Source: Clostridiales bacterium (GTDB lineage Bacteria > Bacillota > Clostridia > Lachnospirales > Lachnospiraceae). From it: a DNA stretch of 64,000 nucleotides. The notes beneath the pieces are model-generated. The model made no database searches. It was not told where the DNA came from and worked only from the letters and a program-made list of their open reading frames with translations. Where the stretch lies: NCBI GenBank assembly GCA_012520655.1, contig JAAYNW010000033.1, positions 1 through 64,000 of the forward strand, written 5' to 3'. A program made the position numbers and the translations under genes. Positions 48,657-52,467 of the stretch are shown piece after piece (the first letter of the stretch is position 1; every line of letters begins with the position of its first letter).

Positions 48657-48886
48657 TTCACATTCCCGCCTTTTACCTGTCTTTATGCCAATGAAATAAT
48701 TATAGCACAGCATATCTTATAATTGCAAACAATTGCCCCCTGCTCCGGTCATTCGTTTACTTTTGATACTCCGACCGCAGAAGTAAAAACGCCTTTTGTA
48801 TTTCATATTAAAGATATTTAAGCATATATTTTATTAATATGTAATTGCATAGTCAGAAAAACAATAAACTTTGCAAGGAGATTTCT

Positions 48887-50560
48887 ATGGAAAAAGTAAT
48901 TGATGAAGATTATTATGATTTGATTATAGATAACGTTCTTGTTCCTAATTATGATACCGGCAACAACATTACATACCTAAACGAAAGACATTCCCTGCTG
49001 CATGTATTAAGCGGCCAGGTAAATATATGTGACCTCGGGACAAATCCTTATCACCGTTTTCCCTCTATCTTCACGCTCACTTCCGCTATCAGTCTGGGAA
49101 AATCGGGGGTCACCCAAATACAGCGTAACACCTCTCTTGCACTGTTCGGAACCGGTGTAATTATCGGGCTCGTAGATACGGGCATCGACTATCAGCATCC
49201 CGCATTCAGACACAATGACGGCAGTACACGAATCCTTTCCATATGGGATCAAACGCTACAGACAGGCGCAATCCCGGAAGACTTTAACTTCGGTTCCGAA
49301 TATAACAGGGAGTTAATCAATCTCGCGCTTTTATCCGCAAATCCTTTATCCGTAGTTCCTTCAGAAGATACAATCGGGCACGGTACTGCAATTGCCAGCA
49401 TTATAGCGGGCAAGCCCGCTCCTGACCAGAGCTTTAGCGGCGTCGTGCCGGAAGCCGAGTTTGTTGTTGTAAAACTAAAACAAGCAAAAGCAAATTTGCG
49501 AAGACTTTCCTTTGTGCCGGAATCCGCTATTTGTTATCAAGAATCCGATATTATTCTGGGAGCGCGTTATTTATTATCCGTTGCCCGCAAGCTCAATCGC
49601 CCTCTTGCGATGTGCATTGCTCTCGGTACCAGTCAGGGCGGCCACGATGAGCACGGTACCACCACCGGGTATTTGGATTTCCTCACTCATCGCCCGCAAA
49701 TCTGCATCTCCACCTCCGCAGGGAACGAGGGGAATAGCGGCAGGCATTATTATGCCAGTATAAACATCCCTCCATATGAAACCTCGTTCGAATTAAGGGT
49801 CGGCAGCGAGGATAAATTATTCGCAATGGAGATCTGGCCTTATGCTCCCAACCGCCTATCCATTGAAGTAGCTTCTCCCAGCGGAGAATCCACACCTATC
49901 GTTTATCCGGGCCTTAATTCCTGTGAACGATTCAATTTTGTGTTTAACCAAGGTACGCTCTGGATAAACAACATTAACTTCGAAGAAGAAACAGGAGAAC
50001 AGCTTATTCTATTGCGCTTTGAAAACCCAATTGCAGGTGTATGGAGCTTTAAGCTTTATAATCTGGAAGATGAACCTTTTTCCTTCCACTCATGGCTGCC
50101 TTCGGGAAATTTGATTTCCAGAGAAACTTATTTCTTGGAATCGAATCCAAACACCACCATTACTTCTCCGGGCAATGCCATCCGCATACTAACAGTAACC
50201 GCATACAATCAATTTAACGACAGTATATGGATAGATTCCGGAAGGGGATATACACGTACCAATCAGGTAAAGCCGGATATTGCTGCCCCCGGCTACGAGC
50301 TTCCCTGTGCATATCCGGACAACCTTTATGCCACAATAACCGGTACCGGAGCTGCTTGCGCTCATGCGTCCGGTGTTGTAGCCATGATCTTAGAATGGGC
50401 CGTCGTGCGCGGCAACTACACTTCAATCACAGGGACGGATATTAACCGCCTTATAACCCGCGGTGCATATCGCGATCCTAACGAAACTTATCCAAACAAT
50501 ATCTGGGGATATGGGCAGCTTGATATAAACGGAGTCTTTGAAAGATTCACCCTCTTCTAG
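48887..50560 (+). CDS. S8/subtilase-family protein (Csp-like), predicted pseudoprotease (Ser to Gly)
   Basis: Start at ATG 48887 after caaggag; VDTGIDYQHPAFRH (Asp), GHGTAIASIIAG (His), STSAGNEGN (Asn), but TITGTGAACAHASG has Gly at the catalytic Ser position. Confidence 0.9.
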   Translation: MEKVIDEDYYDLIIDNVLVPNYDTGNNITYLNERHSLLHVLSGQVNICDLGTNPYHRFPSIFTLTSAISLGKSGVTQIQRNTSLALFGTGVIIGLVDTGIDYQHPAFRHNDGSTRILSIWDQTLQTGAIPEDFNFGSEYNRELINLALLSANPLSVVPSEDTIGHGTAIASIIAGKPAPDQSFSGVVPEAEFVVVKLKQAKANLRRLSFVPESAICYQESDIILGARYLLSVARKLNRPLAMCIALGTSQGGHDEHGTTTGYLDFLTHRPQICISTSAGNEGNSGRHYYASINIPPYETSFELRVGSEDKLFAMEIWPYAPNRLSIEVASPSGESTPIVYPGLNSCERFNFVFNQGTLWINNINFEEETGEQLILLRFENPIAGVWSFKLYNLEDEPFSFHSWLPSGNLISRETYFLESNPNTTITSPGNAIRILTVTAYNQFNDSIWIDSGRGYTRTNQVKPDIAAPGYELPCAYPDNLYATITGTGAACAHASGVVAMILEWAVVRGNYTSITGTDINRLITRGAYRDPNETYPNNIWGYGQLDINGVFERFTLF

Positions 50561-50632
50561 ATTCCTACAAAAATAAATTATATAAATCTGCAGCAGGAAG
50601 TTTGTGGAAATCAAGAAAGGCATGGTATATTT

Positions 50633-52305
50633 ATGGAAAAAATACTTGATGAAAATTATTATGATTTTATTATAGATAATGTGCAGGTCCCTTTTTATGA
50701 TGTCGGCAACAATATTACCTATTTAAATGAACGGCAATCCTTGCTGCATGTATTGGCGGGACAAAAAAATATTTGTGACCTGGGAGCAAATCCTTACCAC
50801 CGCTTTCCTTCCCTATTCATAACGACCTCTCAAATCAGTCTCGAAAAGTCAGGCGTCACTCAAGTACAGCGCAATCCTGCACTCTCATTGTATGGAACCG
50901 GTACAATTGTAGGAATTATGGACACCGGCATCGATTATCAGCATTCTGCATTCCGGCACAACGACGGAACTACACGGATTCTATCCATATGGGATCAGAC
51001 AATTCAAACCGGAACGCCTCCGCAAGATATGGCCTTCGGTTCAGAATATACAAAAGAAATGATTAACCTCGCATTGCAGTCTGCAGATCCGCTATCCATC
51101 GTTCCTACCGAAGATGAGGACGGACACGGTACCGCAATTGCCAGCATAGCAGCCGGCAAGCCCAATGCAGAACAAGGTTTCAGCGGAGTGGCGCCGGAAG
51201 CCGAATTTATCATTGTAAAATTAAAACAGGCCAAAAACAATCTTCGGCGAATTGCCTTTGCTCCCGAGGATATATTATGCTATCAGGAATCGGATATTAT
51301 GCTGGCAAGCCGTTATATAACGTCTGCGGCCAATAGAATGAACCGTCCTGTCGCACTGTGCGTCGCCTTGGGCAGTAACAGTGAGAGCCACGATGGGCAA
51401 GGCGCGCCAGCGGCTATTTGGATTTTCTGACTCGTCTTACCAGAATATGTGTTACTGTCTCTGCCGGAAATGAGGGCAATAGCAGCAGGCATTTCTACGG
51501 TAATATAAGGCAATCTCCTTATCGTTCGGAAGTGGAGCTGCGCATAGACAGTCAGGACAGTCGATTTGCCGCCGAAATCTGGCCCTATGCTCCCGCCCGC
51601 CTCTCCATTGGAATAACTTCGCACAGCGGCGAAGCCACACCCTTAATCTACCCAAGAATCAATACTTGCGAAAAGTTAAACTTTGTATTTAATCAGGGAA
51701 CCGTTTGGGTAAGCAATATCAGTTTTGAAGAAGAGACGGGAGAACAATTAATATTGCTACGCTTCGAGAATCCAGTCTCAGGCGTCTGGCGTCTTAATCT
51801 CACCAATATGGAAAATGAGCCCTTTTCTTTTCATTCATGGCTGCCGGCCGGCAATATGATTTCAAACGAGACCTACTTCCTTCAGTCGAACCCCGATACT
51901 ACCATACTCTCTCCCGGCAACTCCATACATTGTCTGACGATGACTGCGTATAACCAGGACAACGACAGCGTATTAATCGATTCCAGTAGGGGATATAGCC
52001 GTAACGGCAATCTTAAACCGACTCTTGCCGCCCCCGGTTACGAGCTTACCTGTGCGCTCCCGAACAACAACTACGGTACACTGACCGGTACCGGTGCATC
52101 GACTGCCCATACGGCAGGCATCATCGCTCTTCTTTTAGAATGGGCCGTATCGAGAGGGAATTATACATCTATTACAGGTGTAGACATCAATCAGCTGTTA
52201 ATCAGAGCCGCAACACGAAGCTCCGGTACCGTTTATCCCAACAATATCTGGGGATATGGGCAGATTAATATAAACAAGGTCTTTGAGCAGCTCGCATTTC
52301 TTTAA
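50633..52305 (+). pseudogene. Second S8/subtilase-family copy, frameshifted near 51405; predicted pseudoprotease
   Basis: Two ORFs (50633-51430 and 51418-52305) together match the upstream copy end to end; 1 nt missing relative to copy 1 in ...caaggcgcg-ccagcggctatttggat; TLTGTGASTAHTAG also carries Gly for Ser. Confidence 0.85.
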
Positions 52306-52350: not shown

Positions 52351-52353
52351 AAC

Positions 52354-52425
52354 CAGGGCTACAAGGATTCGAACCTTGAGATGACGGAGTCAGAGTCCGT
52401 TGCCTTACCGTTTGGCGATAGCCCT
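52354..52425 (-). tRNA. tRNA-Gln (anticodon CTG), CCA not encoded
   Basis: Minus strand agggctatcgccaaacggtaaggcaacggactctgactccgtcatctcaaggttcgaatccttgtagccctg; 7-bp acceptor stem, GTTCGAATC T-loop, anticodon loop ctCTGac. Confidence 0.95.
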
Positions 52426-52467
52426 ATTTTCGTTTGTCAGTGCGTTGTTTACACGCTACATTTTGGT

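Follow-up and report, generated by a model that had tools for sequence, protein, structure and literature searches.

Tandem predicted pseudoproteases of the Csp family in Lachnospiraceae, with glycine at the nucleophile position and a possible role in spore germination

CspA of Clostridioides difficile was reportedly first described as a pseudoprotease in a 2015 paper. It is fused to active CspB in CspBA (PDB 9PR8, 9PR9; NF040809), carries Ala in place of the catalytic Ser and Gln in place of the catalytic His, and works together with a second pseudoprotease. This partner, CspC (PDB 6MW4, 9PR8; NF040808), has the Csp-type S8 fold with a jelly-roll insert and a Gly at the nucleophile position, and its catalytic His is also lost, being replaced by Thr. 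The CspC:CspA pseudoprotease heterodimer constitutes the germination signal node that acts on CspB and leads to the activation of SleC (PMC12880746). SleC is composed of SpoIID/LytB and peptidoglycan-binding parts (PMC5083711), and CspB of C. perfringens and C. difficile (PDB 4I0W, 9SJ6) possesses the catalytic Asp, His, Asn and Ser in addition to the prodomain PF18425. Csp pseudoproteases were considered to be limited to the Peptostreptococcaceae, the family of C. difficile, while the Csps of Lachnospiraceae were all predicted to be active (PMC6636752, PMC12880746).

The window, i.e. the whole stretch of 64,000 nucleotides analysed here (GenBank assembly GCA_012520655.1, contig JAAYNW010000033.1), contains two tandem genes of this family, separated by 72 bases. 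Both encoded proteins are Csp-family S8 subtilases, relatives of CspA and CspC but not their orthologues. The features of the locus are as follows:

48803..48830, forward strand: sigma-E-like promoter TCATATT-N13-CATATATT, 57-84 bases 5' of copy 1, found by pattern match
48875..48880, forward strand: ribosome-binding site AAGGAG of copy 1, a good one, read directly
48887..50560, forward strand: copy 1, predicted Csp-family S8 pseudoprotease, uninterrupted, 557 aa
50348..50350, forward strand: nucleophile-position codon of copy 1, GGA, Gly488 in place of Ser
50633..51430, forward strand: first part of copy 2, 265 aa, stopping at TGA, with Asp97 (50921-50923) and His165 (51125-51127) kept
51401..51409, forward strand: frameshift site of copy 2, GGCGC-GCC, one base short at about 51405/51406
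51418..52305, forward strand: second part of copy 2, in another frame, with Asn280 (51469-51471) kept
52093..52095, forward strand: nucleophile-position codon of copy 2, GGT, Gly

Copy 1 matches the peptidase S8 (subtilase) family PF00082 with 91.3 bits, against a gathering cut-off of 21.8, and the two parts of copy 2 reach 52.8 and 55.3 bits. Subtilase is the only Pfam match of both copies, and the CspB prodomain PF18425 was not detected in either of them by the Pfam search. Copy 1 retains Asp97 (49175-49177), His165 (49379-49381) and the oxyanion Asn280 (49724-49726). In the catalytic triad of both copies, Asp and His are present and Ser is replaced by Gly, and both proteins are predicted to lack protease activity. 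A preliminary description of this DNA had already read the kept Asp, His and Asn, the Gly for Ser and the different Gly codons of the two copies from the sequence, and each of these observations is confirmed.

Alignment to Csp proteins, which had been proposed as a check, identifies C. difficile CspA and CspC as the best solved relatives. The eight best matches of copy 1 among solved structures are all Csp proteins, with CspA in first place (E 7.6e-75), followed by CspC and CspB. Residues 67-553 align to these three over the subtilase domain and the jelly-roll insert, while non-Csp subtilase structures give partial matches with far weaker E-values. The likeness to CspA and CspC suggested in the preliminary description stands insofar as all of these are pseudoproteases of the Csp family; orthology does not follow, because the C. 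difficile pair has lost the His too and forms a separate branch. The window's pair shares fold, insert and nucleophile Gly with CspC, which groups with CspA on that other branch. Copy 1, unlike CspA, is a separate gene, and the window's proteins share the common fold and the catalytic Asp, His and Asn with CspB but neither its Ser nor its prodomain. Assignment as a C. difficile-type CspC (NF040808, 284.5 against a cut-off of 675) or as a CspBA (NF040809, 303.1 against a cut-off of 1250) was rejected, and the triad loss differs in both cases. The C. difficile-type double loss of His and Ser was not found, the His being kept in all 43 Lachnospiraceae sequences with Gly. Some orthologues have also lost the motif's second conserved His, which is Tyr in three of the four Kineothrix copy 1 proteins. 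An AlphaFold model of copy 1 based on 14 sequences has a mean pLDDT of 53.7, with values below 50 around the nucleophile position. The window's Csp proteins have neither a signal peptide nor an anchor that can be recognised from their sequences.

The preliminary description did not mention that copy 2 is interrupted in this assembly: it is split into two frames by a base missing at about 51405, a position located by comparison with three other Kineothrix genomes in which copy 2 is intact. Over its two parts, copy 2 shares 61-68% protein identity with copy 1. A programmed frameshift was set aside, since the three relatives have a single uninterrupted frame. As both parts are still under purifying selection, copy 2 may be freshly broken in this strain, unless the assembly is wrong at this point. 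A tRNA-Gln gene (ctg) lies just downstream of copy 2 on the reverse strand (52353-52426).

The distribution of the Gly form was analysed in a comparison set of 130 sequences, including 43 Lachnospiraceae sequences with Asp, His, Asn and Gly, 77 with a full triad and seven with Cys. A large clade from several genera contains 38 of the Gly sequences; in these the Gly is invariant and Asp, His and Asn are never lost. All 38 members group together with a support of 100 in a quick larger tree, and the clade is recovered with 100/100 in a careful tree of 17 representatives from which the motif columns were omitted. The named members, at 53-81% identity, are Kineothrix, Candidatus Pelethocola, Clostridium sp. 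C105KSO13, Lactonifactor longoviformis, Faecalicatena contorta, Muricomes intestini, a Ruminococcus MAG and Eisenbergiella tayi. Two expectations of the preliminary description are borne out here: the close Lachnospiraceae orthologues all have Gly, and the tree places the Gly before the duplication with retention afterwards. The presence of the Gly in 38/38 clade members and in 0/77 Ser-type sequences goes well beyond chance. Among 396 evenly drawn Lachnospiraceae genomes, with the three best-scoring places of each considered, at least 14 have a member of the clade; 388 genomes drawn across the class gave only two matches, both in Lachnospiraceae and including the window's own genome. The window's genome, of a gut-type bacterium, falls in the genus group of Kineothrix. 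The pair and the same upstream neighbour genes are present in four of 16 genomes of this genus, both copies being intact in the three others, which indicates that the pair is dispensable within the genus. Among the genomes surveyed, pseudo-Csps occur as pairs or arrays.

Between Kineothrix orthologues, dN/dS is about 0.04-0.16 for both copies, similar to the value for the adjacent thioesterase gene, although these values are loose because dS is near saturation. The clade also has fixed residues of its own. Cys48 is found in 38/38 members and is joined by Cys346 and Cys474 in 32/38; Asn362 and Gly516 are likewise particular to the clade. The Lachnospiraceae Ser-bearing S8 paralogues are nearest to the Gly clade, but they have Ser in 77/77 sequences and lack the three cysteines. 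With purifying selection and fixed residues of its own, the Gly clade resembles a protein that has taken on a new task rather than a relic, and its conservation suggests a task in signalling, not in cutting.

A second Gly group, consisting of four Lachnospiraceae sequences, is nested among Ser sequences, and a single origin of all Lachnospiraceae Gly forms is rejected (p-AU 0.009). In all four genomes, a Ser paralogue precedes the gene of this second group on the same strand, in three of them at a distance of up to about 45 bases. With the large clade, the second group and C. difficile CspC on separate branches, the trees indicate three or more exchanges of Ser for Gly among Csp proteins, and a single Gly sequence (L027) is likely a fourth event. 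In a third S8 paralogue, the nucleophile Ser is replaced by Cys in seven Kineothrix-group genomes (L029, L031, L032, L033, L037, L038, L039), and the paralogue L038 has Cys for the catalytic Asp as well. The orthologue in the window's genome (C50:38229-39680) has Ser, as do those of other genomes; the Cys-type proteins would represent natural Ser-to-Cys subtilases.

Candidate genes for a germination pathway are present elsewhere in the window's genome. The active CspB-like partner that had been anticipated is encoded on contig C15; it contains the CspB prodomain (PF18425) and an intact triad, and its best match is C. difficile CspB. Contig C27 encodes a 422-aa SleC-like protein that contains SpoIID/LytB and peptidoglycan-binding parts, and the genome thus combines an intact CspB-like protein with a SleC-like protein, as looked for in a Csp-SleC pathway. 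Genes with a CspB prodomain and SleC-like genes are both present in 31/31 genomes checked. In F. contorta, the Ruminococcus MAG and Muricomes, a CspB-like gene is located 3-4 kb from a dead Csp, and a stretch of 17 kb in one genome (G303) comprises SleC-like, amidase_3, Ser-Csp, second-group Gly-Csp, Mn-catalase and CspB-like genes. No match to YabG was found in the window's own genome. The gene of a GerA-type receptor is present in two pieces on contigs C43 and C11, probably because of an assembly break. Since Kineothrix has GerA-type receptors, a sensor like that of C. difficile is not strictly needed.

In several relatives, including some Kineothrix species and the genomes G203 and G093, the sleC-like gene is split by inserts of 1.3-5.9 kb at two fixed points, one after the VYTEW codons and the other at the GWMTQW codons. 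Seven of the eight inserts examined (loci L155-L162) carry a large serine recombinase (PF00239, PF07508), and the inserts resemble skin-type elements. Such elements are excised from sporulation genes, and to our knowledge none has been described in sleC.

Sigma-E is the mother-cell sporulation factor, and the site upstream of copy 1 resembles its promoter consensus. The sigma-E-like pattern has two matches in the window against 0.40 expected, and the site upstream of copy 1 aligns with the sequence that precedes the orthologous gene in three other Kineothrix genomes. It is also at the top of the ranking when 25 pseudo-Csp upstream regions are scored against 541 other genes. The score exceeds the 95th percentile of these 541 genes in 7/25 pseudo-Csp upstream regions, with about one expected, several of the seven being close relatives and all of them matches to a consensus only. 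This excess is suggestive of sigma-E-type control of pseudo-Csp genes.

Membership in the Csp family, the tandem arrangement, the presence of partner genes and the promoter-like site together support the proposal that the window encodes a tandem pair of catalytically dead Csps, made in sporulation, that gates the activation of the SleC-like by the CspB-like protein without cutting; we give this reading a probability of roughly 55%. The pair belongs to an old Lachnospiraceae clade in which Gly has replaced the nucleophile Ser and the remaining active site is unchanged. The sporulating mother cell would produce the pair, which would then be loaded into the spore; there the two copies could form a dimer together, or dimers with an active Csp. 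At germination, the dead Csps would serve as sensors or holders that time the cleavage of the SleC-like cortex-lytic zymogen by the CspB-like protease. By analogy with C. difficile CspC:CspA, the window's pair may form a heterodimer gating the CspB-like protease encoded on C15.

The retention of Asp, His and Asn is odd in a protein without chemistry to perform, and the cleft may have a use of another kind. It could capture and hold a peptide (a prodomain, a coat protein or the tail of a substrate); the dead Csp would then be a decoy or an assembly chaperone, for spores or in another setting, and would not gate CspB. Conservation of Asp, His, the oxyanion Asn and the residues around them equals that in active paralogues, only the nucleophile is changed, and to the smallest residue, and the clade-specific cysteines suggest a specialised structure, all of which is compatible with such a role; this is nevertheless rather unlikely, because both the C. 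difficile precedent (PMC12880746) and the fact that SleC-like and CspB-like genes lie close by in some genomes favour germination. The kept residues could also belong to a protein that is still an enzyme, using another nucleophile residue or the Asp-His pair for a different chemistry. Asp and His occur in every member of the clade, and the Cys-type paralogues of some Kineothrix show that the family tolerates changed nucleophiles, but no new invariant Ser, Thr or Cys is found beside the nucleophile position, the sole invariant new Cys (Cys48) is N-terminal, and Cys474 is missing in 5/38 members, so that residual catalysis appears very improbable.

A Csp-derived family acting wholly outside germination would account for the large number of paralogues in some Lachnospirales genomes, where 20 or more candidates go beyond the needs of a SleC switch. 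Csp-like S8 candidates number more than 20 in each of the genomes G049 and G382, where many of them stand in arrays, and a single germination switch needs far fewer; these counts are based on matches from the search tools. The absence of an apparent signal peptide or anchor, the sporulation-like promoter and the linkage to spore genes in some genomes make a function of this kind improbable. Least expected of all are decaying, functionless duplicates. The frameshift of copy 2 and the lack of the pair in most Kineothrix species are what decay would produce, but the pairs are intact in three other Kineothrix genomes, strong purifying selection acts on copy 1 and on each of the two parts of the broken copy 2, and the proteins are conserved across genera.

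Control of germination by pseudoproteases may have arisen more than once: dead Csp pairs and arrays of Lachnospiraceae, formed by repeated exchange of Ser for Gly with the other active-site residues frozen, would gate CspB/SleC beside Ger receptors and independently of CspA/CspC. This wider proposal is tentative, and we rate it somewhat below an even chance. Judged from sequence, the conserved clade of dead Csps in Lachnospiraceae contradicts the view that the Csps of this family are all predicted to be active (PMC6636752, PMC12880746). Non-pathogenic organisms like Kineothrix alysoides offer systems for asking what a dead Csp does, and the dead-Csp pairs raise the question of whether bile acids are needed or whether these proteins work with Ger receptors. 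The repeated change of Ser to Gly, with Asp, His and Asn kept, poses a clean question on the purpose of an empty active site.
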